Assembly: GCA_002205965.3 (NCBI GenBank)
Contig: NADL03000512.1
Coordinates: 1,488,001 to 1,552,000, forward strand
DNA: 64,000 nucleotides
Direction: 5' to 3'
Source: Kappaphycus alvarezii
Taxonomy: Eukaryota; Rhodophyta; Florideophyceae; Gigartinales; Solieriaceae
Part shown: piece by piece, positions 20,772-63,351 of the stretch
Layout of the letters: each line of letters starts with the position of its first letter
How positions within the stretch are numbered: position 1 is the stretch's first letter
Notes under the pieces: generated by a model
Told to the model about the DNA's origin: nothing
The model's input: only the letters and a program-made list of their open reading frames with translations
Database searches by the model: none
Made by a program: the position numbers and the translations under genes

Positions 20772-21111
20772 TGTAATACAAAAAATGGTCCTCCCCTCAT
20801 TTAATACAGGAAATGGTCCTCCCTTCACGTAATACAGGAAATGGTCCTCCCCTCGTGTAATCCAGCAACCTACAACGAACCCGCCCCTAACTTCTCCCAC
20901 CGTCATTTCCAAATTTACTTCCATTTTATCTAGATATTTTTATACTGTATTTAACCCTCTGAATCGACCCCGAATCAAGTCCCCTTTCCCTTTTAGCTTA
21001 CCTCCTCCTCCAAATTCGCCTTTTTTGAGAAGAAGGGCGCAAATGCACTACTGCAAAATCCCTTGCAGATTTATTTTACCTATGCCTAATCTATAGAACC
21101 TGCCCCGGGAG

Positions 21112-21122
21112 CCTATTTAAAC
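21112..21122 (+). promoter_or_regulatory. TATA-like box upstream of the LTR ORF
   Basis: CCTATTTAAAC lies about 110 bp upstream of the ATG at 21,231 and is conserved in the other subfamily-1 LTRs (49,736 and 57,348). It could drive a transcript dedicated to the acidic ORF. Confidence 0.45.
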
Positions 21123-21230
21123 CCCTTTATTCTAAGTTCCAAATGCCCCCGATCATTTTACTCATCACCCCTCTCCCCCCACACACCCGAAACACCCTAC
21201 ATTGCCTCCTGTTCCCCAACGTCTATCAAA

Positions 21231-21839
21231 ATGAACAAACTTCGCCCCTCTGTCCCTATTTCCAAAAACCGCCCTTCCCGTCCCATCAATGGCCTTCGTC
21301 TCGCCGCCTACGGGCCAACCGATGCCGACGACTACATCCGGCGGCAAACAAAGAAGCAAATCATCGAGTTCGTTCGCCGCCTCTTCATAGAAGAAGAAGC
21401 GAGGGAGGTAAGTCAGGGAGAGGCTGAGAAGGTCGAGGAGGAGAGCTGGGAGTCCTTCGAGGAATGGTTAGCCCCTGAGCTAGTGTATGAGGCTCAGGAG
21501 GAGGAGGAGGAGGAGGAGGAGGAGGAGGAGGAAGATGAGGAGGAGGAAGATGATGAGGAGGATGAGGAGGAGGAAGAGGAGGAAGAGGAGGAAGAGGAGG
21601 AAGAGGAGGATGAGGGAACAGGGGGCATGGAAAGTGTTGGACTGGTGGGGCCTGGAATGGAGAGTATGGATCAAGTTGTGCCCACGATGGAACCGGATGG
21701 AGATATCTTTAGTAGTCTAGATATCTCCCAGGGGGGAATAGAGAGCTGTGAGCCATTCGCAGATATTTGTGGGGACTGCTTGGACAGCATGGATATTTTA
21801 GAGGAGTTGTTTGGATCTGATTTAGAGAATGGGAAATAA
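21231..21839 (+). CDS. LTR-encoded acidic protein, subfamily 1, intact
   Basis: 202 codons, entirely inside a solo LTR. Residues 1-60 are conserved between subfamilies and contain GPTDADDYIRR and a helix FVRRLFIEEEA. Residues about 84-126 are an almost unbroken Glu/Asp tract. The C-terminal ~70 residues are conserved: MEPDGDIFSSLDIS, FADICGDCLDSMD and ILEELFGSDLE. The alternation of acidic and bulky hydrophobic residues at the end resembles acidic transcription-activation domains, but that is only inference. I know of no characterised family with this architecture. The intact frame in a solo LTR, with its own TATA, suggests it can be expressed independently. Confidence 0.7.
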   Translation: MNKLRPSVPISKNRPSRPINGLRLAAYGPTDADDYIRRQTKKQIIEFVRRLFIEEEAREVSQGEAEKVEEESWESFEEWLAPELVYEAQEEEEEEEEEEEEDEEEEDDEEDEEEEEEEEEEEEEEEDEGTGGMESVGLVGPGMESMDQVVPTMEPDGDIFSSLDISQGGIESCEPFADICGDCLDSMDILEELFGSDLENGK

Positions 21840-21964
21840 GAGGACCAAATTAATTGTTAGTTTCTTAAGTATCTTTTGCTTAGAGTATATTGTCCACACA
21901 AAGTATTTTTATGCATTTCTTGGTATCTTCTGTAGTTTTGTTCGGACTTTAGGGGTAGCCAAAA

Positions 21965-21975
21965 GTCTATATAAG
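21965..21975 (+). promoter_or_regulatory. second TATA-like box of the LTR
   Basis: TCTATATAAGC lies ~130 bp downstream of the ORF stop. It is conserved in all LTR copies of both subfamilies and is the likely promoter of the genomic transcript in complete elements. Confidence 0.5.
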
Positions 21976-22439
21976 CTGAGTAAACTGCTTCCTCATGGAG
22001 AGGTCAAGCAAGTTGACAGACAAATTCAAGCCAAGTCCCGAGTAGTAGGAAGTTAAGAGTCAACTTCAGACCCAAGAAAACTTTTTCTTACGCTAGTCGC
22101 AGAGCGTCGGTGGTAGACCCTGCCCCTTTTATACTTGCTTTTAGCTTTCTCAACTTTCTTCTATATACACTCCCTTTTGTTCGTTCAAAAATACCACGGT
22201 AGCACTTTTGTCGCTCGCAACACCTTCTTCTCAGGGTAATTGGTTCTGAAGATCTCTTCCCCCGCCGATTTACCCCTATCACAGCTCCTCGATTTTTAGG
22301 ATGAGAGGGTGCAACACTAGATCAAATATAAGACCCCCCTGTTGTGTGCCGGAGACGCTTCAAATGATGCGGCGGACAATTCACAGAAATGCAGGTTTAT
22401 TGTCGAAGCGGTACGAGACCTAAGGAAAAAGGGGGAATA

Positions 22440-33000: not shown

Positions 33001-34430
33001 AACTTGTGAAGATCTGCTAGACAGGTAGCATAATCGGGGCGATATTCTTCGCAGGGAGGATTGAAGTAACCATTATGTCCAGAAATACACTAAAATACCT
33101 TCAAACTATCCCGGCACTAACGGTTACCAAGGGTTTACACTGCACCAAGACATCAGTTAACTTTTGCACTGTACCCAGACACCAGTGTAAAACACAAGAT
33201 CATACCAATCTGTCTGTAAAGCCAATGAAGTGAAGCTATTGTGGCTATCTCGCCGGGTTCCCGAAACATTTCGCTCCTCACAAATCAGAAAATACTGTAT
33301 GCGTTCTCACTAATTGGGTCAATAGAACTTTTCCATTGTTTTTAATGCTTTTTACCTCACTGATTGTTGCTACTGCCCACTCAGAACATTTTATTTTGAT
33401 CCCTCTAGAGTATCTTCTTTAGAATACATTGCATTCAGTACTGTTTTCTTAAAATTCGTCTTTGCTGTCGTGGAGTACTTTTTCCATTTAAAACCCTGAC
33501 CTGAAGCTTCGCACTGGTTGCTGGAAGCACCAAACAACACTTAAACCATCGATTGCCTTTGATGCGCTCAAATACCCATATTAATTCAAAAAGAACCTGG
33601 ATCATTTGATATTAGCTTGTTTTACTTCATTTATGTTAAATAGAGAAATCAAAGGCTTCGTAGGATTACGATAGAGTTATTGCCCAATGAAGTCAACGGA
33701 AAGTTAATGAGAGGTACAAGCAGGGGGGAGTTACAATTCTTTGCACAAAGTTTTGCTCGCATAGCGCCGAGAAGAAAAGTATGAAGCGATATGAAAATAA
33801 AATACTGCATATAGATTCTAAATTTTGTAATATGTTAAAGAAGAAAGGTCTTCAGCATTGTTTTAGTTGCAATAATTGCAGTACAGTGGATGCAGAAGCG
33901 ATAATAAACTAGTTACGAACTGTTTATGATATAAATATTCCCTCCTTACATATATTCGCGGTAATCTTTGCTTCCAGATAAAGAAAAGATTCTATTTAAT
34001 AGGTTGAAAGCTATGATTAACAAAAGAAGTGTACCTAGATAAAATTTTGAAGCTGAAAATAAATAAAAACTGTTTTACAACTAGAAAAAAGATGAAAGGT
34101 GAGGCAGAACTTTAATCTGTCTCGTCAATGTATTGCTTTAGCAGTTTTCATCTTCGAAATTCAAATCTTTCCTAATATTTTTGCCCGAAGATACTTCAAA
34201 GATATTAGTGGCGAAATTGTTATGGGAATTAAACGCCAAAAAATTTCGCGAGTGATTTGGGAACATTTTTTACTGTCTGTTTATTTATCTTAAAAAGCTA
34301 ATTTAGTAGTTTAATGTTAGCGATCAGACAAAGATACAAGAGACTCAAGAATTTGTTCCGCGGTTTGCTTAAGTGCAATGTCTCTAAGATTTAGATAATT
34401 AGATCACGGAGAGAATTAGTAATAATCCTT
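33001..34430. other. AT-rich sequence without recognisable features
   Basis: It contains no frame above 64 codons and no family resemblance. It could hold the unrecognised downstream LTR of the chromovirus-like relic. Confidence 0.4.
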
Positions 34431-35195
34431 TGATTTTTTCGGATTAGGCGGATGTAGAGGGATCGGAAGGTGAGGGGTATTAAGTGGACCCATGGAAGCC
34501 ACTATTTTACAACAGTGGGGGAGCTGCTGTAGAGGACAGAGGAAATATTAAGGGAGTAACTGTTATTTCTGACTCCTCTGATATCTATGAAGCGGAGTTT
34601 GAAGGTCGCGAGGAGGGTTTAGAGGAGCTGGATATGTCCGAGGAGGCTATCTACTATTATAAACCGTTCGATGGAATTTGCAGAGACTACATTGGGGGTA
34701 TGGATATTGTGGAAAAATTGTTTGGCTTTGATTTCGAGGACTACTTGTGTAAGGATGAAACTAGATATTTATCCTGATAATATCTTATGTTATTCTTTCT
34801 TGTCCAAGCTTTTCTCTTAAATACATTTTATGATAATAATTATGTTTTTTCTTGCGATTTCAGGGTTAGCCAAAAAGTTCACATAAGCTGATTAAACTGC
34901 TTCCTCTTGGAGAGGTCAAGCAAGTGGAGGGACAACTTCAAATGAACACGCAAGTAGTCTAGAAGTTGAAAGTCAACTTCTGCCCTGAAAAGAATTTCTT
35001 CAACGCTGCTCCTGGAGCATAGGCAGTAGGCTCTGACCGCTTAATACTACCTGTAGTCTCTCGGTACTCCGGTTTCTTCATCTATTCTCGTCTCCACAAC
35101 CATACTTCTTTAGCAATCTCTTCGCTTGCAACGCCTTCAATATGGGAAAGATGGCGCTTAGAATATCATCCTCGGAATATCTATCCCTATTTCAC
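34431..35195 (+). mobile_element. 5'-truncated LTR, subfamily 2
   Basis: Collinear with the 3' two-thirds of the subfamily-2 LTR. It starts inside the acidic ORF, continues through GGTTAGCCAAAAAGTTCAC with the TATA-like region, AGTCTAGAAGTTGAAAGTCA and the distal segment, and ends near CTATCCCTATTTCA at about 35,194. The upstream part, including the promoter of the ORF, is missing or unrecognisable. Confidence 0.65.
34484..34777 (+). pseudogene. LTR-encoded acidic protein, truncated, with SUMO-interaction-like motif
   Basis: 97 codons starting at the segment MDPWKPLFYNSGGAA that lies mid-protein in the complete copy at 42,919-43,503. It keeps the SIM-like VTVISDSSD, an acidic stretch, and the C-terminus FDGICRDYIGGMDIVEKLFG. 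The N-terminal conserved block is absent. Confidence 0.6.
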
Positions 35196-40889: not shown

Positions 40890-41160
40890 TGATAGGGTTA
40901 AATCGTCCGGAGAAGAGAAACCCAGAACCAACTTCCCCAATAAGGAGGTGTTGCAAGCGACAGCCCCCGTAGTATAGTTGAACGGACAAAACGCAGTGGA
41001 TAAGGAAGACAGTTGAGGGGGATAAAATCAAGTATAGAAGGGGCAGGGTCTACCATTGATGCTCTGCGACCAGCGTAGGAAAACTTTTTCTTGGGATTGG
41101 AGTTGACTCTCAACTTCCTACTACTCGGGACTTGACTTGAAATTGTCTTCCAACTTCCTT
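40890..41160 (-). mobile_element. LTR fragment, distal end (subfamily 1/2 family)
   Basis: Plus-strand TGATAGGGTTAAATCG, then GAGGTGTTGCAAGCGACAG, GGGTCTACCATTGATGCTCT and CTACTACTCGGGACTTGACT is the reverse complement of the last ~270 bp of the Ty3-family LTR. The rest of the LTR is missing. It lies inside the copia element. Confidence 0.7.
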
Positions 41161-41244
41161 TACGCTTAGTTTGTGACTTAGTTTGTTGAGCGCCCCGCTC
41201 GGGTATGCTGTCTCACAAGTACTCCTGCCATTTTGTGCAAACAG

Positions 41245-42470: not shown

Positions 42471-43774
42471 TGATAGGTATAAATCGGCGGGGGACTAGAT
42501 CCTCAGCAAAAATTACCCCAAGAAGGAGGTGTTGCAAGCGACAAAAGTGCCACCGTGGTATAGTTGAACGAACAATAAGGAGTGTATAGGGAAGACAGTT
42601 GAAAGGGCTACAAGCAAGTATGGAAGTGTCAGGGATTACCACCTATGCTTAGTGACTAGCGTAAAATAAATGCTTCTTGGTTCTGGAGTGAACTCTCAAC
42701 TTCCTACTACTCGGGACTTGACTTAAAGTAGTCTGCGAACTTGCTTGACCTCCACAAGAGGAAGCAGTTTACTCAGCTTATATAGACTTTCTGGCTAACC
42801 CTAAATTCTCAAAGAAACATACTAAGAACCATAAAATGCAACAAATGGAATCGTGTGAACGACAAAGACTAACAGGAGATACTATCAGAATAAATATCTA
42901 GAATATTTCCTTAATATCTTAGTCCTCTATATCAGAGCCAAAAAGTTCCCCCAAAATATCCATCCCACCCAGGCAGTCCACACAAATATCCGCGAACGGC
43001 CTAGAATTATCCATTGCCTCCTGTGAAATATCTAGATCACTGAGGACGCCCCCATCCGGTTCCAGAGTCAGGACCGCGTAGTCCATATTTTCTGGCTCCT
43101 TCCCCACTAATCCAGCACTTTCCATGTTTCCCTCCCCCTCATTCTCCTCATCCTCCTCTTCACTCCTCTCTTCATCTTCGTCAGAAGAGTCAGAGATCAC
43201 AATTACTCCCTCTGTCTCCCCTTCATTCTCCATGAGAGCCCCCCCACCGTTATACACTAGTGGTTCACACGGATCCACGCAGTCCTCCTCTTCTTCCTCC
43301 TCTTCCTCCTCTGCATCTTCTGCCTGCTCGAAGCAGTTACGGCGGACCCACTCCCGAACGCGTTCCCGGTCCAACCTTTTACAGTAATCATCGTAGTCAG
43401 TTGGGTCATTTTCCATCAGGGCCGAAGCATTGAGTGGATGACGGCCTCGGGATGACTTGGTGATGGTGAGGGAAGGGCGAATGTTGGTCATGTTAAGGGC
43501 CAAAAAAAGCGGTGGGCTGATGGGGTAGTTGATGGCGGGGGTTGCCCCAACGACGTCGATTTCGAACTTTAAATACTGCGACGTCTTCGAAAAGTAGGAC
43601 GACCTTGGACATGTACAGTAACGGCACCTATTAATGACACAGGGTCTTAAAACTAAAAATCAACCCATGATTTTGCGACACTCATCCAAATTAAAAATAT
43701 CTTCCAAATTCCGATACTGTATACAATTTTGGTCCTCTTCTAGATTTTTTCCGTGTGCAAATTTGCGCACGTCA
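42471..43774 (-). mobile_element. solo LTR, subfamily 2, with perfect target duplication
   Basis: Plus coordinates run from TGATAGGTATAAATCGGCGG to CGCACGTCA. GTCAC flanks it on both sides (42,466-42,470 and 43,775-43,779). Removing the LTR and one GTCAC restores the REL reading GTDIFDVTFVNPLASS. The LTR is 1,304 bp, minus-oriented, and contains an intact acidic ORF with a TATA-like TATTTAAAG upstream (43,568-43,576). Confidence 0.92.
42919..43503 (-). CDS. LTR-encoded acidic protein, subfamily 2, intact, with SIM-like motif
   Basis: 194 codons inside the solo LTR. Translation could start at 43,503 (MALN) or at 43,491 (MTNIRPS). The second start aligns with the other copies. Domains in order: a conserved N-terminal block (SLTITKSSRG, DPTDYDDYCKR, REWVRRNCFEQAE); an acidic tract of about ten Glu; CVDPCEPLVYNGGG; GVIVISDSSDEDEE, which fits the SUMO-interaction motif pattern of hydrophobic core then Ser/acidic cluster; a second acidic tract; and the conserved C-terminus LEPDGGVLSDLDIS, then FADICVDCLGGMD, then ILGELFGSD. 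The subfamily-1 protein lacks the SIM-like segment. Function is unknown; nuclear regulation is an inference. Confidence 0.7.
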   Translation of the reverse strand: MALNMTNIRPSLTITKSSRGRHPLNASALMENDPTDYDDYCKRLDRERVREWVRRNCFEQAEDAEEEEEEEEEDCVDPCEPLVYNGGGALMENEGETEGVIVISDSSDEDEERSEEEDEENEGEGNMESAGLVGKEPENMDYAVLTLEPDGGVLSDLDISQEAMDNSRPFADICVDCLGGMDILGELFGSDIED

Positions 43775-46012: not shown

Positions 46013-46642
46013 ATGGTTATCTGCGGGGACCACTTGCTGAACTGTCGTTCCAGCTTTGAACTCAGTTCTCGTCATAACCAGGTGACCCTCGCGGGACATG
46101 ACCTTGGGCCGACCGACGTCCATGCGGGCCTGGACTGCCAATACGAAGTCCCGCTCCTTGTCCCGGGAACGAATATCTGCCCTGCGGACATTCTCATACA
46201 ACCCCCCCTGCCCACAGGCCAACAGGTCCGCCTCATAGCCTGCGACCTAATCGTTGTCTCGCCGTTCAAACAAGGCGTGCGCACAAGGGCTACACAAATG
46301 GCCGGCGGCGCCGCCGACATTGCCCACCGAGACAAAGTCAAAGACCTGGGGCGCAAACTGGTACGCCGCATCCCGCACCCTTCGCACAACACCCTCCAGG
46401 AACCGAACTTCAAGTTTCAGCCCCTGGCTTTCGACTCCTTGGGTGCCCCATCCCCCGCCTCTATTTTGTTCCTCGAAGACTTCATCCCGCACATTGCAGA
46501 GAAGTTCAATACAACCACAGCAGTGATCCGCAGACGTATTTATCAGCGCATTAGTTGCACACTGTGGTCTTCTGTTGCAATGGCGATTCTATCGCGAGCC
46601 CCACTGCACGTGCCTGACGTGGAACATCCGGTTAGTTCTTAG
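46013..46642 (+). pseudogene. lineage-3 REL domain with zinc-cluster exit, intact frame
   Basis: 209 codons, the longest uninterrupted REL reading here. It begins CGDHLLNC then SRHNQVTLAGHD (Cys/His exit of the zinc cluster). It continues NICPADILIQPPL, then VRLIACDLIVVSPF. GGAADIAHRDKVKDL, FQPLAFDSLGAPSP and IYQRISCTLWSSVAMAILSR follow. Asp in PAD and CDLIV, Lys in DKVKD and the F-x-P-x-x-x-D-x-x-G block fit a restriction-endonuclease-like fold. The RT is missing upstream, so it is a 5'-truncated copy. The ATG is probably fortuitous. Confidence 0.7.
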
Positions 46643-49135: not shown

Positions 49136-49365
49136 TTACCGGATATCTTGTATGAAGCAAAGTGCTTTGAGCATTCCACGAGATATGCCTGCCCCGTACT
49201 CATCCTTCTCCCCACCGACTTCTAACCCCTCCAGATCGTCAACGACATCACCGACGTCGTCGCATTCTGAAGAGCTGAGATCAGACCAGTCCGTCAGTCC
49301 ATCCAGCGAGTAGGCACCCACAAATGGTAACCAGTAATCCTCTAAGATATCCCGGGCCTCAACCG
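49136..49365 (-). other. acidic reading frame cut by the Ty3 insertion
   Basis: The minus frame reads EARDILEDYWLPFVGAYSLD, GLTDWSDLSSSECDDVGDVV, then DDLEGLEVGG. It looks coding-like and is unlike the transposon shadows. Its upstream side is interrupted by the 9.15-kb element inserted at 49,366. Beyond the element (58,523 on) the sequence is a non-LTR tail rather than more of this frame. The origin is unknown; the end of another element's protein or a host-gene fragment are both possible. Confidence 0.3.
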
Positions 49366-50896
49366 TGTAATACAAAAAATGGTCCTCCCCTCATTTAATA
49401 CAGGAAATGGTCCTCCCTTCACGTAATACAGGAAATGGTCCTCCCTTCACGTAAGACAGGAAATGGTACTTCCCTCGTGTAATCCAGCAACCTACAACGA
49501 TCCCGCCCCTAACTTCTCCAACCGTCATTTCCAAATTTACTTCCATTTTATCTAGATATTTTTATACTGTATTTAACCCTCTGAATCGACCCCGAATCAA
49601 GTCCCTTTTCCCTTTTAGCTTACCTCCTCCTCCAAATTCGCCTTTTTTTGAGAAGAAGGGCGCAAATGCACTATTGCAAAATCCCTTGCAGATTTATTTT
49701 ACCTATTCCTAATCTATAGAACCTGCCCCGGGAGCCTATTTAAACCCCTTTATTCTAAGTTCCAAATGCCCCCGATCATTTTACTCATCACCCCTCTCCC
49801 CCCACACACCCAAAGCACCCCATTGCCTCCTGTTCCCCAACTTCTATCACAATGAGCAACCTTCGCCCCTCTGTCCCTATTTCCAAAAACCGCCCTTCCC
49901 GTTCCATCAATGGCCTTCGTCTCGCCGCCTACGGGCCAACCGATGCCGACGACTACATCCGGCGGCAAACAAAGAAGCAAATCATCGAGTTCGTGCGCCG
50001 CCTCTTCATAGAAGAAGAAGCGAGGGAGGTAAGTCCGGGAGAGGCTGAGAAGGTCGAGGAGGAGAGCGGGGAGTCCTTCGAGGAATGGTTAGCCCCTGAG
50101 CTAGTGTACGAGGATCAGGGATGAGGATGAGGAGGATGAGGATGAGGAAGAGGATGAGGAAGATGAGGAGGATGAGGAGGATGAGGATGAGGAGAAGAGG
50201 ATGAGGAGGAGGAGGAGGAGGAGGATGAGGCAACAGGGGGCATGGAAAGTGTTGGACCGGTGGGGCCTGGAATAGAGAGTATGGATCAAGTTGTGCCCAC
50301 GATGGAACCGGATGGAGATATCTTTAGTAGTCTAGATATCTCCCAGGGGGAAATAGAGAGTTGTGAGCCATTCGCAGATATTTGTGGGGACTGCTTGGAC
50401 AGCATGGATATTTTAGAGGAGTTGTTTGGATCTGATTTAGAGAATGGGAAATAAGAGGACCAAATTAATTGTTAGTTTCTTAAGTATCTTTTGCTTAGAG
50501 TATATTGTCCACACAAAGTATTTTTATGCATTTCTTAGTATCTTCTGTAGTTTTGTTCGGACTTTAGGGGTAGCCAAAAGTCTATATAAGCTGAGTAAAC
50601 TGCTTCCTCATGGAGAGGTCAAGCAAGTTGGCAGACAACTTCAAGCCAAGTCCCGAGTAGTAGGAAGTTGAGAGTCAACTTCAGACCCAAGAAAACTTTT
50701 TCTTACGCTGGTCGCAGAGCGTCAGTGGTAGACCCTGCCCCTTTTATACTTGCTTGTAGCTTCCTCAACTCTCTTCTATATACACTCCCTTTTGTTCGTT
50801 CAACAATACCACGGCAGCACTTTTGTCGCTCGCAACACCTCCTTCTCAGGGTAATTGGTTCTGAGGATCTCTTCCCCCGCCGATTTACCCCTATCA
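49366..50896 (+). repeat. 5' LTR of the Ty3 element
   Basis: 1,531 bp. Contains TATA-like CCTATTTAAACC (49,735-49,746), the acidic ORF and a second TATA, TCTATATAAGC (50,581-50,591). Confidence 0.93.
49852..50454 (+). pseudogene. LTR-encoded acidic protein, frameshifted copy in the 5' LTR
   Basis: The frame is open from the ATG at 49,852 but shifts inside the GAG/GAT repeat tract, ending in a stop at 50,122-50,124. The conserved C-terminus (MESVGPVGPGIESM to LFGSDLENGK) lies in another frame at 50,242-50,454. The 3' LTR copy is intact, so the change followed insertion or arose by slippage in the repeat. The N-terminal 60 residues are identical in content to the 3' copy. Confidence 0.8.
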
Positions 50897-50898
50897 TT

Positions 50899-50916
50899 TG
50901 GTACTCTTGTGGAGGG
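50899..50916 (+). promoter_or_regulatory. candidate primer-binding site
   Basis: TGGTACTCTTGTGGAGGG begins two bases after the LTR, where a sequence complementary to a tRNA 3' end (…CCA) is expected. I could not match it to a particular tRNA. Confidence 0.4.
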
Positions 50917-50984
50917 GGTTGCACCCGAGGTATTCGAGTTGAGCAGTAGTAAGGAACACTTCGGGGGATTTCTTTTCTGTAATC

Positions 50985-52657
50985 ATGGATCTCAACGCTG
51001 CTCGTATAACGTTCACAGGGGCAAGACTGAAGACGTTGAGGAGTTTCTTTACACATATGTCAACGTTGTGATGCGAGAGAAGGGCGATGAAGAGAAGGCC
51101 GCAAGTATCTTCGCCTATCTTCATGGTGACGCAAAGCACAAATATAAGTCCAAGTTTATCGACGGGTGGTCTCTTAACGGGAATGGGCGTAACTTCGGTG
51201 AGGTATGTGAGTGGCTTGTGAAAGAGTATGCTAAGGAGGTAGAACCAGATGAGATGATTCGTACCGCCATAGAGGCCCGGCTCAACTTCGACGATTTGTT
51301 AAGCTCATTGGTGTACTTGTGTGATCTTTATGAAAAGGCTGGGTTCAACGCCCAAGCCAAGTACGGAATGCTGCGTAAGGCGGCTATGGGGGATAAGCGG
51401 CTCTCCGATTTCCTCCTCATCAAGGGCCCTCACACTTTTGATGAACTGAAGGGTACCATAGTAGAATTTGTCAAAAATTCGGAGACGTTTCAGTCACTGA
51501 GTGAGGTACCGAGGGAAACCCGCACATCGATGTCTATCGTACATCCTGAAAAGAATTATCAAAGGCCGGCTACTAGTGCAGCGGCATTAGAATCTGTCAG
51601 GAGCGATGTCAAAAACTTGGAAGAAAGGTTGGAAACCCGATTCGATAATCGACTTGACATGATAACCTCGCAGTTGGAAAGCCTTACTCTTACCATTAAG
51701 AAGAACCAGTCTGGGGCCCCTAAGGCCGCAGAAGTCTGTTCTTACTGTCACAAGCCTGGACACTTTGCAAACAGGTGTCCTGATAATCCACATAGAAACA
51801 CTCGTTGTGCAAAGTGCGGTCGATATGGGCATCATGAAAGTAACTGCTGGTCTAAAGACAACAGAAGAGCAAATTTATCGGAAGCAAGGAGTGAGTCAGG
51901 ACCAGAGGTGAAAATCTTACAAAATAGAAGGGATCAAAGGTTGACGGATGCCGGTAACGTATCCATCGCTGAAGAGATTAGTCAAGTCAATGTGACAAAA
52001 AGGGATGGGGAAGGGAACATTTTATCGAAGAAACCTAGGCTAGAGTATGGAATGCTGGAGCATATCCCAGCACCTGTACCTCCTCGAACCAAGAGGTCTG
52101 ATCAAGTTGTTCCAGGAGTGGGAGTCACTCCGGCCAAGAAGACGAAAAAGAGTAAGAAAGTTAAGAGTATCTCTAAGGACGTACTAGAGTATGTGAAGAG
52201 GTACAATTTGGTGGCTGAGCTTGCATCGGCCCCAACTGGGATAACGTTTGGTCAACTTTTGAGGGGCGACGCAGAGGATGCGAGAAAAGAACTCAAAAAA
52301 ATTATCAGGTCTAATAAGTCCGCTAAGGGTAAGAAACTGTTTCTTCAATCGGCCTCGACAGCACCAAGACGTCTTAAGCTGGTACCAGTCAAAGTATTGG
52401 GTATGAAAACCCAAGCTCTCTTCGATTCGGGTGCTGTTCCAAACCTCATTTCAGAAACTTTGGTGACAGATCTAGGTCTCGAAATTACTCCAACGACTCG
52501 AAAAATAACTGTAGCGGATGGAACCGTCTCAAAATGCATGGGCACTGTTGACAAGGTTTCCGTGTTCTTTGGGGACTCTAAAGTTGATGTAGACTTTCTT
52601 GTCATGCCGGATCTCCCTTTCGATGCAATCATTGGCTGCCCCACATGGAAAGACTAG
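50985..52657 (+). CDS. Ty3 gag and protease
   Basis: A gag-like start MDLNAARITFTG is at 50,985. A single-base shift in a G run at about 51,013-51,017 leads into the long frame from KTEDVEEFLYTYVNVVMREK. The capsid region follows (to about 51,500), then a coiled segment (SVRSDVKNLEERLETRFDNR). Two CCHC zinc knuckles follow: CSYCHKPGHFANRC at 51,736-51,777 and CAKCGRYGHHESNC at 51,805-51,846. A basic segment (AKKTKKSKKVKS) comes next. The aspartic protease has DSG at 52,424-52,432 and ends DAIIGCPTWKD at the stop. Protease sequence appears to continue in the +1 frame (IDLGNQMVSVNI, to 52,859), so either programmed frameshifting or a mutation separates it from pol. Confidence 0.85.
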
Positions 52658-52905
52658 GACATGCATTGACTTGGGCAACCAAATGGTTTCAGTTAATATT
52701 GACGGCAGAACCGTGAAGATGCCCCTGGATTTCGACAAAAGCACGCATCCTGAAGATTTAAAAGAAACGGACAGTGAAGATTTCACTTCTAGCTATGACA
52801 GCGAAGATTCGGAACCAACTAACACTTTCGGAAGTGGAAAAGGGTACCCTCGGGGGTAATGAACATGGCATGGGACGATTATGATTCCGGGTTTGAAACA
52901 GATGA

Positions 52906-54755
52906 CGACTGGATTCTAGGATAAGTTTGAAACCCGAATGTGTTTCTTTTTGCGATGATATCGAATCAAAGGACAGAATTCGGAGCATGAAAGAAGATTA
53001 CCTTTGCAAAGAAAATAAGAATACGTCGAATTCCATATATGAAGATGTGAGCACGACGGAAGAGGTCCTTCAAAATATTGAGGTTGAGGATCAAGAAGAA
53101 AAAGGGCGCCAAATGGCAGAAATCCAAGGAAAAGTGCAGCACCTTCCCGCCCCCGCCTCACTGAAAATATCCGACATGTTAACATCTTCCGAAGTAATTG
53201 CATGGAGCGTTTCAGATTTAAGACAAGCAAGTGTACCGGTTACTCACTCGTTCGAACTTACCGACACTCAACCGATTTACCACAAGCCTAGACGTCAACC
53301 GCCAAAATATGACCAATTTATCTCAGAAAATGTTACAAGTATGCTGAAAAATGATATTATTCGACCAGTTTCATCCCCATGGTCGTTTCCAGTTGTGGTC
53401 GCACCAAAGAAGGATGGAAAGCTGCGTTTTTGCGTCGATTACCGACAACTGAACCAGAGAATGATACCCGATCGATTTCCGATTCCGAACATGGAGGAGA
53501 TCCTCGAGGACCTGAAGGACGGGAGATATTTCACCTCAATTGACCTTTACACTGGCTATTGGCAGATTCCATTGGATGAAAAATGTAAGGAAAAAACAAC
53601 CTTTACCAGCAAAGCCGGTACGTTCAGGTTCGAAGTGATGCCTTTTGGTCTCATGAATGCACCAGCTACATTCCAAAGAATGATGAACGAGGTTTTGAAA
53701 GGACTTCCATTCGCAAGAGTCTATATCGATGATGTCGTCATATTCTCAGAAACATTGGATCAGCACATCTCGCACGTCAAGACAGTTGTGGAGAGGATAT
53801 CGGAGTATAGCTTGAAAATTAAGTTGAGCAAATGCTTCTTTGCGAAAACTTCTATCCAATTACTCGGTCATATCGTCGACCAAGAGGGAATTAGAGTGGA
53901 TCCAGAGAAAACGAAAAAAATAAAGTTGGCACCAAGGCCCGCTTCAAAGACGGAGGTCCGAAGCTTCTTAGGACTGGCCTCATATTACAGAAGATTTATC
54001 AAAGATTTCGCCAAGACTGCAGCACCGTTACATGCCAGCACTACGAAGAACGGAAAATTTTACTGGAACAAGGAAATGGAAACTGCATTTCAGGAGCTTA
54101 AAGATAAGCTATGTGTCCCCCAGTTCTCATGTACCCAGATTTCAAGAGACCATTCGTTGTGGAGACAGATGCCTCAGAACGGTCTTTGGGTGCCGTTTTG
54201 TCCCAAAAAGATGAAAACGGAAGACTACACCCTGTTCAATTCGCAAGCCGAACTCTGAATGACGCGGAAAAGAGATACTCAGTCTGCGAGAAAGAAGCGC
54301 TAGCTGTCGTCTTCGCGCTGAAAAAGTTTCGCGTATACCTTTTATCACTCGAGAAATTTGTCTTGATAACTGATCACCAGGCACTTAAAACAGCATTCCA
54401 AAAGAAGGATGTACATCACCGCTTGGCCCGATGGCTCGACATTTTCGCAGAATATCGGTTTGAAATTGTGTATAGACCCGGACGCAATAATCAGCCTGCC
54501 GATTACCTATCCCGCTTGAGGGACGCACTGATTCCAAATGAAAAAGCTTCGGAGGACATCGTCGGAGTCGCCGAGTTGCAGTTGCCGAACGATAACGAGT
54601 ACGAAGCTAATATTCACGGACTGATCAAATTCCTCGATGGACTAGAAATGAGAAAGGTTGATCTTGAACACCGAAATTGGGTACGCAGGAATCAAAAGGC
54701 TTTTACATTGTGGAATGGGAAACTTTCCGGCACACTAAAGCCGGTCCCCGACTAG
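52906..54755 (+). CDS. Ty3 reverse transcriptase and RNase H (one frameshift)
   Basis: The frame is open from 52,906; no ATG near the start, as expected for a polyprotein. RT motifs: KLRFCVDYRQLNQ, FTSIDLYTGYWQIPLD, FRFEVMPFGLMNAPATFQ and YIDDVVIF (YIDD at 53,722-53,733), then LLGHIVDQEGI and RSFLGLASYYRRFI. A one-base change in the CCCCC run at 54,117-54,121 moves RNase H into the next frame: YPDFKRPFVVETDASERSLG, EKEALAVVFALKKF, TDHQALKTAF and GRNNQPADYLSRL. The frame stops at 54,755; a second shift near 54,720 continues into integrase. All domains look otherwise intact. Confidence 0.9.
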
Positions 54756-55870
54756 TGGCCCCTTTGAAAGAAAGAATGAAGATCTTGAGGACTTTCCATG
54801 ATGAGCTAGGGCATTGGGATCTCGAAACAACCAAAAAATTCGTAACTGAGAGATTCTGGTGGCCCGGTATCCATAAGGACGTCTATAACTTCGTGAAAAG
54901 CTGCGACAACTGCCAAAAATTCACTCCAATACGGAAGTATAAGACAACTCTAAGTTTTCCAGTTTCCGGTCTCTTTGAAACCTTCTCAATTGACTTCGCG
55001 GGCCCGTTCAAGGAAACTTCTTCCGGAAACAAATATCTCCTTATAGGGGTGGAACATCTTACTGGATGGCCAATAGCAGTTGCAGTCGAGGAGGCAAATG
55101 CTGAGGTGGTACTGAGATTCATCGAAAAAGAAATAATTGAACCGTTTGGTCTTCCAAAAAGGATCATCTCGGATAACGCCCTTTGTTTTACTGCAACTTC
55201 ACTGCTTCGTTTTTTGGAAGAGAAAGGGATTCAGCTGAAGACCGTTCTCGCATACGCTCCTATGTCCAACGGGAAAGCGGAGAGGATGGTTGGAACCATC
55301 AAACGAGCAATATCGAAAACTATGTTGGAGAATGAAATCCAGTGGGAAGATGCCTTACCAAAAGTGTTATACGGCTACCGTCGAAGAAGAGGAAGAAATG
55401 GACGCTCACCATTCGAGCTAATGTACGGAAGGGCTCCTAGAATGTTACAGAGAGACATGGAAACAAATATTATCGATGAAGAGAGTAGGGAAGTTGAACT
55501 ACTGGCCACCGAAGGCTGGAGATCACACCGCGCGCTAACACAGACAAGAAATAAGGATGCAGAACCTGCAGTCAGAACCTTTTCAGTTGGCTCTAAAGTA
55601 CTTGTAGTACATGGAAAAGCAATGCAGCAGGCTGTGAAGTGGCCGGCCTTCCAAACCAAGTACTCGAACCCTTGCATCGTCACGGAGGAAAGACACCCGC
55701 ACTATCAGCTCTGTTCAAGCTCAGGGAAGAGATCAAGGAGGGCCATCCATGCACGTCGTCTGGTCCCTTACCATCAGAGGCCTGAAGAATTCCTTCTCAC
55801 ACAGGACTATGCGCAACCACGGGGCATACTCATCTTTAACTATAGAATGATTCCTATGGGAGGAAAAAGG
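54677..55870 (+). CDS. Ty3 integrase (first half of a 755-codon frame)
   Basis: Zinc-binding HHCC: FHDELGHWDLE, then CDNCQKF. Catalytic core: IDFAGPF (Asp at 54,992), ISDNALCF (Asp at 55,172) and NGKAERMVGT (Glu at 55,280), all present. GYRRRRGRNGRSPFELMYGR follows. A GPY/F-like module (VKWPAFQTKYSNPCIVTEE, then RRAIHARRLVPYHQ) follows at about 55,640-55,770. Residue 1 of the frame is internal, since true coding comes in from the RNase H frame by a one-base shift near 54,720. The frame runs on without a stop into the extension described next. Confidence 0.9.
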
Positions 55871-55873
55871 GCC

Positions 55874-56944
55874 TGGGAATGGATCATCTCGGTTACGCGG
55901 GACTACTACGAACTCCACGTAATCATCCATTTCTACATTAATATATGCCTATGTTTTCGTACGTTGAACGGACCATTGCTACCTGAAGAAGATTTCCGAC
56001 TATTAATAAGAGTTCTATTTTCATTCCAAAACGGAAGGTTCACGGAAGCAGGTCCAGAGTTTGTGGAGGTAATATATCATTACTCTATAGGAAGATATGG
56101 AATGGTAGCTGCTGGAGACTTGTCGCAAACGTATCTGAATATTATCCGTCCAATTTACGTATTTCTCAAGAACAACCAAGACGTGCGACTGAGAGGTTAC
56201 GCCTTACCCCCGGATATGGAATACAGGCTGGTCCCGTATCCTCTATGGGAACCTTACGTTTCTCCGCCACAAATTGGGAACGTTGGAGGCGGCGAGGATC
56301 CTCCTGAAGCAGTGATGATGACCAGAGGAGGACCTTCAGGAGACAACAACCCGCCCAGAAGAGGTTCCGGTCGTCCCCCGAGAGGACCTCGTGCAGGTCC
56401 CAGTACGTCAGGAGCTGGTCGCGGCCATTCATCGGGACCGTCCACCACAACTTCATCTCTAGCTCTCCTTCACAACCATGCACAGCATACAGTCGGAAGA
56501 AGAAGATTATCTTTTTGGCTGCGCAATATCTCCGAGGATGCGAACGATGCGCAGGTCATTTCTTATTTCATGATAAGCATCTGTTTATGTTTTAGGGCGC
56601 TACATGGACCGCACTTATCTTACGAAGATTCGTTCTTGATGATGCGCGTCTTCTTTTCTTATCGACATCCATTCCTCCGGCATCTTCCAGAAGAGTTTGC
56701 ATATCACATATATTTTTTCACTCTTGGAAGATTCGGAAGAGTCACGGAAGAAGAATGTATTCAACCCCACCTCGATGTGATCAAACCAATATATGAGGCT
56801 ATGCTACAAAGTGAGGTACCAGTAATGCGAACCTACTTTTTAGAGCATCATATTGGTAATCAGTTGCATCCGTACCCGTTTGAGAGACCATACATCTTAT
56901 CAATAAGACAGCGAACACTAACGGAAGCAGAAGAAGAGCAGTGA
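55874..56944 (+). CDS. C-terminal extension: two copies of an unknown domain
   Basis: In frame with integrase. Copy 1 (55,874-56,260) and copy 2 (56,513-56,905) share INICLCFRTLNGP / ISICLCFRALHGP, then an ED pair, RVLFSF / RVFFSY, a PEF/PEEF stretch, IGRYGMV / LGRFGRV, IRPIY / IKPIY, and YPLWEPYV / YPFERPYI. About 250 bp of Pro/Arg/Gly/Ser linker (PPRRGSGRPPRGPRAGPS) joins them. Each copy is ~130 residues, probably alpha-helical, with one hydrophobic stretch too short to be a convincing membrane span. I see no signal peptide, so an envelope protein is unlikely. I do not recognise the domain. It replaces the chromodomain found in other Ty3 elements and could serve in targeting or as a structural protein. 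Confidence 0.75.
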   Translation, partial: WEWIISVTRDYYELHVIIHFYINICLCFRTLNGPLLPEEDFRLLIRVLFSFQNGRFTEAGPEFVEVIYHYSIGRYGMVAAGDLSQTYLNIIRPIYVFLKNNQDVRLRGYALPPDMEYRLVPYPLWEPYVSPPQIGNVGGGEDPPEAVMMTRGGPSGDNNPPRRGSGRPPRGPRAGPSTSGAGRGHSSGPSTTTSSLALLHNHAQHTVGRRRLSFWLRNISEDANDAQVISYFMISICLCFRALHGPHLSYEDSFLMMRVFFSYRHPFLRHLPEEFAYHIYFFTLGRFGRVTEEECIQPHLDVIKPIYEAMLQSEVPVMRTYFLEHHIGNQLHPYPFERPYILSIRQRTLTEAEEEQ

Positions 56945-56962
56945 CGACCCGGGACGTTCGCC

Positions 56963-56977
56963 TTGAGAAAGGGGGCG
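56963..56977 (+). promoter_or_regulatory. polypurine tract
   Basis: GAGAAAGGGGGCG directly before the 3' LTR, the usual primer site for plus-strand synthesis. Confidence 0.7.
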
Positions 56978-58517
56978 TGTAATACAAAAAATGGTCCTCC
57001 CCTCATTTAATACAGGAAATGGTCCTCCCTTCACGTAATACAGGAAATGGTCCTCCCTTCACGTAAGACAGGAAATGGTACTCCCTCGTGTAATCCAGCA
57101 ACCTACAACGATCCCGCCCCTAACTTCTCCAACCGTCATTTCCAAATTTACTTCCATTTTATCTAGATATTTTTATACTGTATTTAACCCTCTGAATCGA
57201 CCCCGAATCAAGTCCCTTTTCCCTTTTAGCTTACCTCCTCCTCCAAATTCGCCTTTTTTTGAGAAGAAGGGCGCAAATGCACTATTGCAAAATCCCTTGC
57301 AGATTTATTTTACCTATTCCTAATCTATAGAACCTGCCCCGGGAGCCTATTTAAACCCCTTTATTCTAAGTTCCAAATGCCCCCGATCATTTTACTCATC
57401 ACCCCTCTCCCCCCACACACCCAAAGCACCCCCATTGCCTCCTGTTCCCCAACTTCTATCACAATGAGCAACCTTCGCCCCTCTGTCCCTATTTCCAAAA
57501 ACCGCCCTTCCCGTTCCATCAATGGCCTTCGTCTCGCCGCCTACGGGCCAACCGATGCCGACGACTACATCCGGCGGCAAACAAAGAAGCAAATCATCGA
57601 GTTCGTGCGCCGCCTCTTCATAGAAGAAGAAGCGAGGGAGGTAAGTCCGGGAGAGGCTGAGAAGGTCGAGGAGGAGAGCGGGGAGTCCTTCGAGGAATGG
57701 TTAGCCCCTGAGCTAGTGTACGAGGATCAGGAAGATGAGGATGAGGAGGATGAGGATGAGGAAGAAGAGGATGAGGAAGATGAGGAGGATGAGGAGGATG
57801 AGGATGAGGAAGAAGAGGATGAGGAGGAGGAGGAGGATGAGGAGGATGAGGCAACAGGGGGCATGGAAAGTGTTGGACCGGTGGGGCCTGGAATAGAGAG
57901 TATGGATCAAGTTGTGCCCACGATGGAACCGGATGGAGATATCTTTAGTAGTCTAGATATCTCCCAGGGGGAAATAGAGAGTTGTGAGCCATTCGCAGAT
58001 ATTTGTGGGGACTGCTTGGACAGCATGGATATTTTAGAGGAGTTGTTTGGATCTGATTTAGAGAATGGGAAATAAGAGGACCAAATTAATTGTTAGTTTC
58101 TTAAGTATCTTTTGCTTAGAGTATATTGTCCACACAAAGTATTTTTATGCATTTCTTAGTATCTTCTGTAGTTTTGTTCGGACTTTAGGGGTAGCCAAAA
58201 GTCTATATAAGCTGAGTAAACTGCTTCCTCATGGAGAGGTCAAGCAAGTTGGCAGACAACTTCAAGCCAAGTCCCGAGTAGTAGGAAGTTGAGAGTCAAC
58301 TTCAGACCCAAGAACACTTTTTCTTACGCTGGTCGCAGAGCGTCAGTGGTAGACTCTGCCCCTTTTATACTTGCTTGTAGCTTCCTCAACTCTCTTCTAT
58401 ATACACTCCCTTTTGTTCGTTCAACAATACCACGGCAGCACTTTTGTCGCTCGCAACACCTCCTTCTCAGGGTAATCGGTTCTGAGGATCTCTTCCCCCG
58501 CCGATTTATCCCTATCA
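56978..58517 (+). repeat. 3' LTR of the Ty3 element
   Basis: 1,540 bp, collinear with the 5' LTR. Differences cluster in the GAG/GAT tract. TATA-like boxes are at 57,347-57,357 and 58,202-58,211. Confidence 0.93.
57464..58075 (+). CDS. LTR-encoded acidic protein, subfamily 1, intact in the 3' LTR
   Basis: 203 codons from the ATG at 57,464 (MSNLRPSVPISKNRPSRS); upstream in-frame codons to 57,377 are not conserved as protein. The conserved N-terminal block carries GPTDADDYIRR. The Asp/Glu tract (residues about 86-126) is encoded by GAGGAT repeats. The conserved C-terminus has MEPDGDIFSSLDIS, FADICGDCLDSMD and LEELFGSDLE. It lies in the U3-like part of the LTR, between its own TATA and the conserved second TATA. 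An ORF inside an LTR is rare among retrotransposons; the best-known parallels are accessory genes of complex retroviruses. An AG-GTAAGT donor-like site lies inside the frame (57,639-57,646). Confidence 0.75.
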   Translation: MSNLRPSVPISKNRPSRSINGLRLAAYGPTDADDYIRRQTKKQIIEFVRRLFIEEEAREVSPGEAEKVEEESGESFEEWLAPELVYEDQEDEDEEDEDEEEEDEEDEEDEEDEDEEEEDEEEEEDEEDEATGGMESVGPVGPGIESMDQVVPTMEPDGDIFSSLDISQGEIESCEPFADICGDCLDSMDILEELFGSDLENGK

Positions 58518-58522
58518 AACCG

Positions 58523-59822: not shown

Positions 59823-61319
59823 TGTTGTTATAAAACGGCTCTTTCTGTAGGAGAGCGGCCCTTCTCATAAACTTCTGTCTTCTGCTTCCTATGAGGTTTC
59901 AAAACAACTCTTCCCCCCTATTTTCTTTTAAGAACAAAATCATGAAACGAAATTTCCCCTATGAATCCAAATTCACTGTACAACTCCATTTCCATTTTAA
60001 CTCTGAGGATATAGGTCCTCCTTTTCCAAAAAAGAAATCTTTCTACTCTTGATCTGCTTCGTTCTCCAAAATCAGTTCCGATGTTTTCTCAAGCAGATTT
60101 TTTTTGTTATTTATCTGATTGCATGCAATCTCAAAGCTGCAACATTATCTCACATTTCGTATTCCGTCCAAGACCATGATATTTTTCGAAGGCGTCGCCC
60201 TAGTTAAAGTTCCAAATCAACGTCGCTGAGGCAAAACCCCCTGCCATCAAATACCTCATCGCCTCATACTTTTTCTCCCTCAATATGACCAACCTCCCCC
60301 TCACCATCACCAAGTCATCCCGAGGCCACTGCCCCTCAATGCTCTAGCTTTGATTGCCAATGGACCAACTGCCTATGATGATTATTGTACAAGAAGTTAT
60401 GGGGAACGCGTTCGGGAGTGGGTCCGCCGGTACTGCTTCGAGGAGGCAGAAGAGGCAGAGGAGGAGGTAGAAGAAGAGGATGCAGAAGAAGAGGTAGAAG
60501 AGAAGGACGGGGAGGACTGGGTGGACCCCTGGGAGCCACTAGTGTACAACGGAGGGGAGTTGCTGTGGAGAGCGAAGGGAGGCTGAGGGAATAATCGTTA
60601 TTTCTGACCCTTCTGACAAAGATGAGGAGTAGCACGAAGAGAAGGGTGAGGAGGATGAGAAAGAGGGAGGCATGGAGAGTTTTGGAATGGTGGGGAGGGG
60701 GCTGGAACGTATGGAACACGTGGTTTCGACGCTGGAACCTGATGGGGGCATCTTTAGTGGTTTAGATATCTCCCAGGAGGAAATAGAGAAGTGGAAGCCG
60801 TTCGCGGATATTTTTGAAACTGCTTGGGTGGAGTAGGTATTTTAGAGGAATGTTTGACTCTGATCTTTAGAACTAAGATTGGAAGGAATAAATGTAGGTA
60901 TTTATCCTGATAATATCTTTTACTAGTCTTTCTCTCTCAAAAGATTCAGTTTGATGCATTTTTTGGTACTTAGCATGTTTGTTTGAGACTTCACGGCTAG
61001 CCAAAAAGTCTATATAAACTTAGTAAACTGCTTCCTCTTGTGGAGATCAGGCGAGCTTGAAGACAACTTCAAGTCAAGTCCCGAGTAATAGGAAGTTGCA
61101 AGTTAACTTCAGACCTAAGAACCATTTTTCTTGCACTAGTCACAGTGAATCAGTGGTAGACCCTACCCCTTTTATATTCTCTTGCAACCCTCTCAGCTGT
61201 CGTTCTTATACACCTCTTTTTTCGCTCAAATATACTACTGTATCACTTCTGTCTCTCGTAACACCTCCTTGTTGAGATAATTGGTTCTGAAGATCTCTTG
61301 CAACGATTTATCCCTATCA
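59823..61319 (+). mobile_element. solo LTR, subfamily 2, with perfect target duplication
   Basis: Starts TGTTGTTATAAAACGGCTC, ends TTTATCCCTATCA, and is flanked by TCATC at 59,818-59,822 and 61,320-61,324. 1,497 bp. It is collinear with the minus-strand copy at 62,096-63,351 over its whole length. Confidence 0.88.
60285..60862 (+). pseudogene. LTR-encoded acidic protein, subfamily 2, broken
   Basis: MTNLPLTITKSSRG starts at 60,285. The frame stops after ~20 codons and resumes shifted at 60,350 with NGPTAYDDYCTR, REWVRRYCFEEAEEAEEE, WVDPWEPLVYNGG. Another shift gives the SIM-like IIVISDPSDKDEE, and the C-terminal LEPDGGIFSGLDIS and FADIF follow. Three or more lesions. Confidence 0.75.
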
Positions 61320-62095: not shown

Positions 62096-63351
62096 TTATA
62101 GGGGTAAACATTCGGGAGAAGAGATACTGAATACCCACTGCCCCAAGACGGATGTTTTGCAAGCGACAAAAGTGCTACCTTGGTATCGTTGAGCAACCAG
62201 AAAGAGTTGGATAAGGAAGAAAGTTGCGAGGGCTATAAAAGGGGTAGGGTCTACCACTGATGCTCTTTGACCAGCGCAAGAAAAATTTTTCTTGGGTCTG
62301 AAGTTGACTCTCAATTTCCGAACTACTCGGGACTTGACTTAAAGTTGTCTGCCAAATTGCTTGACCACCACAAGTGGAAGCAATTTACTCAGCTTATATA
62401 GACTTTTTTGGTTAACTTCAAAGTCTCAAACAAACATACTAAGTACCACAAAATGCATCAACTGTAATTTTGTGAAACAGAAAGACTAACAGCAGATAAC
62501 ACAAAGATAAATATCTTTATTTTCTCCTTGCAATTTTAGTCTTCGAGATCAGAGCCAAAAAATCCCTCCAAAATATGCATTCCCCAACGCAGTCCCGCAA
62601 ATCTAAATGAATGGCCCAGAATGATAAATATCCTTACCTTCTGATCATTCAACCCCTGTCTCAGACTCCTCCTCTTCTACCTCTTTTTCTGCCTCCTATT
62701 CCTCTATCTCCTCTTCTGCCTCCTCGAAACAGTGCCGGCGGATCCACTCCCAGGCGCGATCCCGGTCCATTCTTTTACAATAATCATCATAGTTGGTTGG
62801 CTCATTGGCCACCAAGACCAGCTTGTTGAGGAGGCTGCGGCCTCGGGATGACTTGGCAGGTGAGGGACGGGCGGAGGTTGGTCATTTTGAAGGCAAAAAG
62901 GGGGTGAGCCGGTGGGTGGCTGATGACGGTATTTTTGCCTCAAAGACATCGATTTAGAAGCTTAAGTAGGGCGATGTCTTCGAAAACTTTCACAGTCTTG
63001 AACGAAATTAAAAAATGTGAGTCAATGCCGCAGGTTTGAATTTGCATGAAATCAGGGCAATGACTAAAAATCTGCTTGATGAAACATTGGACCTGATTTT
63101 GGAGTACGAAACGGATCGCCAGTCGAAAATCTTCTTTTTTGAAAAGGAGGATCAAAATCCTCGGAAATAAAATGGAAATGGGTTTTTACAGCGAATTTGG
63201 ATTCATAGAGCAAAATTCGTTTCATAATATCTTTCTTAAAAGAAAATCGGTGGGAGGATTTGTTTTGAAAAATCAGCGGTCAGGGATGAAGAAGAAAGAA
63301 GTTTGTGGAGAGGACTGCTCTCCTATAGAAAGAAACTTCTTTATAACAACA
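62096..63351 (-). mobile_element. solo LTR, subfamily 2, older copy
   Basis: The reverse complement begins TGTTGTTATAAAGAAG (at 63,351), as the copy at 59.8 kb does, and ends at 62,096 (CCCCTATAA instead of CCCTATCA). Flanks GAGGA and GTAGA agree at three of five positions. 1,256 bp. Confidence 0.8.
62536..62885 (-). pseudogene. LTR-encoded acidic protein, subfamily 2, internally deleted
   Basis: MTNLRPSLTCQVIPRPQPPQ shows an early shift. NEPTNYDDYCKRMDRDRAWE, then WIRRHCFEEAEEEIEE and stops follow. The SIM-like region is missing. The C-terminus LEGFFGSDLED is still readable before the TAA at 62,536. Dead copy. Confidence 0.7.

Follow-up and report, generated by a model that had tools for sequence, protein, structure and literature searches.

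Long terminal repeats (LTRs) are usually taken as non-coding (PMC4667437, PMC3485330; here and below the cited articles are drawn on in excerpt), and the exception described in these excerpts is the sag gene of mouse mammary tumour virus (MMTV). Genomic sag is found mostly in solo LTRs (490 of 527 contigs; PMC3026287, PMC4667437); its overall ratio of nonsynonymous to synonymous substitution rates (omega) is 0.289, and none of 25 orthologous inserted bat LTR copies differs significantly from 1 (PMC4667437). The present analysis concerns a 64,000-nucleotide stretch (hereafter the window) of the 336-Mb, 884-contig genome of the red alga Kappaphycus alvarezii, positions 1,488,001-1,552,000 of contig NADL03000512.1, in which a Ty3-like retrotransposon at 49366..58517 has an open reading frame (ORF) inside its LTR. 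Judging from the sequence comparisons set out below, this Ty3-like lineage very probably carries an accessory gene within U3, the part of the LTR upstream of the genomic transcript start, that is under purifying selection while the lineage transposes and drifts near-neutrally after insertion.

Compared with sag of MMTV and related betaretroviruses, which lies mostly in U3 of an unusually long LTR (about 1.3 kb), the LTR ORF is wholly inside the LTR and upstream of P2, the likely promoter of the genomic RNA. Like sag, it shows purifying selection in spreading lineages and neutral evolution after insertion; unlike sag, it belongs to a Ty3-like element without a recognised envelope, encodes a very acidic protein and is directly preceded by a TATA-like box. 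Two types of LTR are distinguished below: L3, the LTR and U3 type of the window element, and C, a diverged type exemplified by the solo LTR at 42471-43774. Homology to the Sag family was not detected in Pfam with the ORF of either type (L3 up to E 1, C up to E 0.1). Sag function needs vertebrate T cells. The proposal that retroviral LTR genes offer the best parallel is upheld, with MMTV sag the closest parallel and one that apparently arose independently of the LTR ORF. Foamy virus Bel/Tas and lentiviral Nef are accessory genes at the 3' end that overlap U3, but they merely overlap the LTR, whereas here the entire ORF is inside it, and no Pfam family matching either was found for the LTR ORF.

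Several plant LTR retrotransposons (Grande with gene23, RIRE2, Retand and those with env-like ORFs) bear extra genes of unknown function, some of them nuclear, and the extra gene of Grande has its own promoter; unlike the ORF of the window element, these ORFs are internal, mostly between pol and the 3' LTR (PMC7264820). Bdelloid rotifer LTR retrotransposons with captured ORFs have LTRs of 159-551 bp, their extra ORFs are of enzymatic origin or env-like, and an LTR-contained ORF is not described in the excerpts (PMC5408684). Literature on genes inside LTRs turned up cases of the MMTV type and retrotransposons bearing additional ORFs. No gene lying within the LTR of a Ty3-like element is described in the excerpted parts of PMC7264820, PMC5408684, PMC6875170, PMC3026287, PMC4667437 and PMC4016481, nor in those of PMC12037069, PMC3485330, PMC1560396, PMC5408686 and PMC13195028, a mostly open-access literature in which the place of Retrosat2 ORF0 (PMC3485330) is unsettled.

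The window element has the direct LTRs with TG...CA ends (1531 and 1540 bp, 99% identical) and the short target duplication (5 bp, AACCG on both sides) of a Ty3/gypsy element, together with the domain order protease, reverse transcriptase, RNase H and integrase and a gag-like part before the protease. The original prediction of a complete Ty3-like element therefore holds for its structure but not for its coding capacity, since the internal genes are split over four ORFs in three frames, some overlapping, and gag-pol is broken as a coding unit in this copy. It had also placed an ORF of about 200 codons in both LTRs; the 3' LTR has one of 203 codons, whereas the copy in the 5' LTR is stopped within its acidic repeat. 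The acidic repeats of the two LTRs differ from each other by gaps of 2, 3 and 4 nt, and outside the repeat the LTRs differ at six positions, none of them in the ORF.

Both predicted promoter boxes were located (Table 1). The TATA-like box expected about 110 bp upstream of the ORF is TATTTAA (P1), at 116 nt, and the second conserved TATA expected about 130 bp downstream is TATATAAG (P2), 128 nt after the stop codon. Eight LTR copies in the window include ORF sequence and three of them have it intact (the 3' LTR and the solo LTRs at 20772-22281 and 42471-43774); a ninth copy is a 3' fragment without the ORF. In all three LTRs with an intact ORF, P2 lies 314 nt from the LTR end. None of 1000 dinucleotide shuffles of each of these LTRs reached the length of its longest ORF, and chance therefore does not explain the ORF. 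Amongst 42 C-type loci, which share ancestry, 38 carry, at 55-130 nt before the ATG, a TATA-like box (at -84 or -85 in 32 of them), compared with 23 of 336 background windows, and the position of the ATG is conserved, with A at -3 in 39 loci. Gaps within the ORF among the three intact window copies are multiples of three (3, 18, 3, 15 and 3), as is the 99-nt in-frame gap relative to the partial copy at 34400, whereas gaps downstream of the ORF are of 1-4 nt. The ORF keeps its place even between LTR types that can hardly be aligned in the non-coding U3 upstream of it. The claim of a protein-coding gene borne by the LTR upstream of the likely genomic promoter, and copied with each insertion, thus stands.

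Selection was tested with the acidic repeat excluded. Between the window 3' LTR and the C-type LTR ORF, the pairwise GY94 omega was 0.226 (p = 2.8e-8; 0.146 for the N-terminal part and 0.205 for the C-terminal part), and with a DNA-guided alignment the ORF frame had 0.29 and the two alternative frames 1.11 and 1.22. Treating R/U5 as codons yielded 0.93-1.37, which was not significant. The corresponding ratio of proportions, pN/pS, was lowest in the ORF frame for all five diverged window copies, both in the N-terminal part (0.48-0.69) and in the C-terminal part, where this was clear in four (0.38-0.47) and weak in F15 (0.82 versus 0.89-1.03); control stretches outside the ORF ranged from 0.61 to 1.63. 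The pN/pS of 0.47 observed between the 3' LTR and the C type was below all 500 neutral simulations made at each of three transition/transversion ratios (minima 0.55-0.63).

The main tree comprised 20 intact ORFs (7 L3-type and 13 C-type; 121 codons), L119 having been dropped beforehand because its acidic repeat is out of frame. Terminal branches had an omega of 0.86, internal branches one of 0.36 and the stem separating the U3 types one of 0.22; two classes fitted better than one (p = 2.5e-5), a value of 1 was rejected for internal branches and stem together (p = 3e-10), and it was not rejected for terminal branches (p = 0.38). An earlier tree of 15 ORFs agrees (0.83, 0.42 and 0.41, respectively; p = 0.018). 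Low omega on the internal branches and stem, combined with terminal values near 1, indicates that the ORF is selected along transposing lineages and drifts after insertion. A dN/dS well below 1, which the original prediction had named as the sign of purifying selection, was therefore found between U3 types and on the internal and stem branches.

Several observations weigh against this reading. Synonymous sites are near saturation between the U3 types, making omega rough there, and the tree sets comprised intact ORFs only. The contrast between branch classes was not significant in a tree of the 13 C-type ORFs (terminal 0.73 versus internal 0.48, p = 0.28), which did reject neutrality overall (p = 0.006). 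It was weaker in a 21-ORF tree (terminal 0.79, internal 0.60, stem 0.43; three classes versus one, p = 0.11), where internal branches and stem equal to 1 were still rejected (p = 1.9e-4); this tree was not relied on, as it includes L119. Close comparisons gave values near neutrality: with the acidic repeat excluded, omega between the window 3' LTR and the window solo LTR was 1.13 (test against 1, p = 0.86) and that between two C-type copies (the window copy and L084) 0.92, while polymorphism in the young burst (12 nonsynonymous to 6 synonymous, against 3.7:1 expected) gave no significant selection and was uninformative. The first part of the ORF is conserved no better in DNA than non-coding U3. 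The period-three acidic repeat would itself favour gaps in multiples of three, and broken copies also have gaps of 1-2 nt. A further tree run (terminal 0.56, internal 0.80, stem 0.21) was set aside for a wrong C-terminal anchor in the L3-type rows.

With a selected U3 gene as the preferred reading, the following cycle may be proposed. Reverse transcription would copy U3 into both LTRs, giving each insertion two ORF copies at the start. P1 would make the mRNA of the LTR ORF and P2 would start the genomic RNA, so that the gene would come to lie at the 3' end of the genomic RNA, as does sag in MMTV. Selection would see only the transposing source copies, and in solo LTRs and dead copies the ORF would last only as long as chance spared it from breakage in the unstable acidic repeat or by point mutation. 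If U3 houses an accessory gene in a Ty3-like element too, one apparently unrelated to sag, it would be shown to be a repeatable place for such genes; the very many copies would offer a system for testing how selection acts on a gene present twice in every new insertion. The masking of LTRs in repeat annotation can hide coding genes of this kind, and the question whether U3-encoded proteins act on their own U3 is made testable.

The LTR protein has an isoelectric point (pI) of 4.05 and a net charge of -44 to -63, with the first 60 residues neutral to basic. The last 50 residues have a net charge of -12 to -14 and 15-17 large hydrophobic residues, a composition familiar from acidic activation domains. 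From these features we infer a regulatory protein that would act on expression of the element itself. It would be small, very acidic and probably nuclear, and transcriptional activator would be its likeliest single role, a specific assignment that is put forward tentatively and with some doubt. Composition is the sole pointer to a transcriptional role; the LTR ORF gave no known domain in the Pfam searches mentioned above, and a structure model of its protein was too poor for a fold search (mean predicted local distance difference test, pLDDT, of 46), all of which counts against the proposed function.

It is conceivable, if rather doubtful, that the product is instead an anti-host-defence, assembly or nuclear-import factor. 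Amino-acid identity between the U3 types is only 49% for the LTR ORF against 83-85% for gag, and such fast divergence is usual for proteins facing host defences, but dS differs in the same direction as the amino-acid divergence. All 13 intact C-type ORFs have, with minor variations, a stretch around VIVISDSSDEDEE that resembles a SUMO-interacting motif, a point in favour of such a role, but this stretch is absent from the L3 type, which has the long acidic repeat instead. Relatives of the LTR protein were not found in viral contigs, either by protein or by the P2 motif, nor in the genome contigs searched; acidic proteins overwhelmed the search when the ORF was left unmasked. One relative of the C-terminal part, P0099, occurs in another public assembly, possibly of the same species (E = 2.3e-12).

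The two U3 types occur in the same element lineage, as indicated by the C-type LTR L084, whose own ORF is stopped: beyond it come a primer site with the start seen in the window element and 2.8 kb of internal DNA that matches this element at 87.8% identity. No similarity continues past these 2.8 kb, and no 3' LTR was found within the 8 kb fetched. Between L084 and the window element, dS is 0.15-0.29 in gag and protease and about 2 in the LTR ORF, for which omega is 0.18. Along the LTRs of the window element and the C-type element, identity is 34-51% in upstream non-coding U3 where alignable, 40-52% in the first part of the ORF (LTR positions 501-650), 60-78% at positions 651-750 and 851-1100, 49-56% between the ORF and P2, and 76-90% in R/U5, from just past P2 to the LTR end; the step falls at P2. 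Within U3, conservation of the DNA is highest in the second half of the ORF. Amongst 41 young L3-type copies, R/U5 (LTR positions 1231-1540) varies at 35 of 310 sites compared with 18 of 486 in the ORF outside the repeat; R/U5 is nonetheless the best-conserved part of the LTR between LTR types.

The identity step at P2 points to this box as the U3/R limit. Were the genomic RNA to start at the upstream box instead, the ORF would be a leader ORF in R and not a U3 gene. The upstream TATA-like box is indeed conserved in place in the C type, but the step up in identity between LTR types occurs at the downstream TATATAAG box, as for a U3/R limit, and the distance from P2 to the end is constant in the three window LTRs, making a leader ORF improbable. 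Reverse transcriptase switches templates at the U3/R limit in retroviral replication. With P2 as that limit, the simplest reading of the comparison, which is drawn from one element (L084/L114), would be that the U3 types diverged long ago and later passed from one backbone to another by exchange at this point, neither type losing the gene. A wider scheme may be imagined in which the Ty3-like lineage evolved a U3-encoded regulator with its own promoter independently of retroviruses, U3 modules of promoter and regulator join various gag-pol backbones by recombination at the U3/R limit, each LTR is a control cassette complete in itself, and the protein acts on elements of its own U3 type, leading to rapid co-divergence of protein and promoter; taken as a whole, this scheme is considered unlikely.

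In a first look at the genome, the C-type protein had 9,862 candidates and the L3-type protein 11,049, with 150 candidates scored per U3 type. The 42 C-type loci consist of the 30 best-scoring, including the window copy, and 12 fetched loci that all lack a stop in the matched part; within this set, 13 ORFs were counted intact, excluding L082 and L088 (different end) and L107 (different beginning). The LTR end was located in 32 of the loci. In 17 of these, the next five bases recur directly before a TG start resembling the C-type LTR start; of the others, one is followed by the primer site (L084), 13 have no such repeat and in L106 the repeat match is unlike an LTR start. Intact ORFs were found in 22 of the 41 L3-type copies examined (38 from the genome and 3 from the window), and at least one copy was intact in 17 of 27 L3-type elements for which both LTRs were available, namely the window element and 26 LTR pairs assigned by their distance (C862 was omitted, having no partner LTR at the expected place). 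An apparent excess of intact ORFs in 3' over 5' LTRs (12/15 versus 8/21) was an artefact of copy choice and was dropped, given 9 versus 4 discordant pairs (p = 0.27) in a paired test on the 27 elements. Two L3-type LTRs, L012 and L042, start about 3.8 kb apart, share the duplication GAGAC and both have intact ORFs; given this spacing, the shorter element is possibly non-autonomous.

The original prediction further held that the ORF survives as a functional stand-alone gene when an element collapses to a solo LTR. Intact ORFs do occur in solo LTRs, and perfect target duplications flank six C-type examples (window 42471-43774, L075, L093, L097, L108 and L109), as would be seen if a host-domesticated gene were kept there as a cellular gene. 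Terminal branches nevertheless fit an omega of 1, as does the comparison of the 3' LTR with the window solo LTR, 29 of the 42 C-type loci were not counted intact (three for altered ends rather than an early stop), and the ORF is broken in all of a further three young solo LTRs with target duplications. Domestication is therefore not supported and is regarded as very improbable, and this part of the prediction was not borne out.

The acidic repeat (57722-57851 and homologous places) is hypervariable, with 41 of 126 sites varying among the 41 young L3-type copies, and is the chief site of ORF breakage; in L119 it encodes an Arg/Met-rich stretch, and the two protein ends remain in frame. That the ORF is an accident of this GA-rich microsatellite, without coding function, is scarcely credible: the GAG/GAT units leave one frame with few stops, the repeat varies greatly, 16 of 19 broken copies have their first stop within the repeat or beyond it, and young copies evolve near-neutrally, but the selection signal is frame-specific with the repeat excluded, omega is 0.22-0.36 on stem and internal branches against values near 1 in other frames and in R/U5, and the L3- and C-type proteins have both ends in common although the longest acidic run is just 10 residues in the window C-type ORF versus 39-40 in the L3 type.

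Table 1. Features of the window element and of related LTR copies (window positions)
Feature	Position	Strand	Remarks
Left target-site duplication	49361..49365	.	AACCG
5' LTR	49366..50896	+	1531 bp, TG...CA
Probable primer-binding site	50897..50915	+	begins TTTGGTACTC; identical start after C-type LTR L084/L114
ORF with gag-like part, weak CCHC-type match and aspartic protease	50855..52657	+	gag start codon uncertain
Reverse transcriptase ORF	52927..54258	+	
RNase H ORF	54111..54755	+	
Integrase ORF	54677..56944	+	long C-terminal tail
Integrase tail	55847..56944	+	tandem pair of repeats of about 135 aa with 36% mutual identity
Purine-rich tract, probable polypurine tract	56965..56977	+	directly 5' of 3' LTR
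3' LTR	56978..58517	+	1540 bp
Right target-site duplication	58518..58522	.	AACCG
LTR ORF in 3' LTR	57464..58075	+	intact, 203 codons, pI 4.05
LTR ORF copy in 5' LTR	49852..50454	+	ATG 49852; broken by stops within acidic repeat
P1, TATA-like box of LTR ORF	57348..57354	+	TATTTAA; 116 nt upstream of ATG
P2 box, likely genomic-RNA promoter (predicted)	58204..58211	+	TATATAAG; 128 nt after LTR ORF stop
Solo LTR, L3 type	20772..22281	+	95.6% identical to 5' LTR; target duplication CAACT/CAGCT (4/5)
LTR ORF in solo LTR 20772..22281	21231..21839	+	intact, 202 codons
Solo LTR, diverged C type	42471..43774	-	perfect target duplication GTGAC
C-type LTR ORF	42919..43491	-	intact, 190 codons
LTR relative	59823..61319	+	ORF broken; perfect target duplication TCATC
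LTR relative	62096..63351	-	ORF broken; imperfect target duplication (3/5)
Truncated LTR relative	34400..35190	+	C-terminal ORF part open after in-frame 99-nt difference
Decayed LTR relative	14700..15650	-	ORF broken; LTR limits not set
LTR 3' fragment	40890..41163	-	without ORF

The remaining parts of the window element were also surveyed. A scan of the window for tRNAs (bacterial code) found none. The purine-rich tract ends in GGGCG, and these bases also stand before 11 of the 13 partner 3' LTRs that were fetched by distance. The tail repeats of the integrase gave no family in Pfam and no match among PDB sequences, a structure model of the tail (mean pLDDT 34) was too poor for a fold search, and relatives of the integrase ORF were not found in viral contigs. 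The doubled tail is also present in the public record P0100, and the related P0101-P0104 stop soon after the integrase. A 28-bp tandem repeat forms the 5' end of the L3-type LTRs (20772-20865, 49367-49487 and 56979-57086) and is shorter by about one unit in the solo LTR at 20772.

Elsewhere in the window, ORFs at 17026-18923, 25886-26563 and 46013-46642 resemble, by eye, pieces of other retroelements, and a retroelement-like ORF piece with a weak RVT_1 match (E 0.07) was found at 4776-5690 on the minus strand. An ORF with FG-GAP repeats and an ASPIC/UnbV domain at 6941-8176, also on the minus strand, is possibly a host gene.

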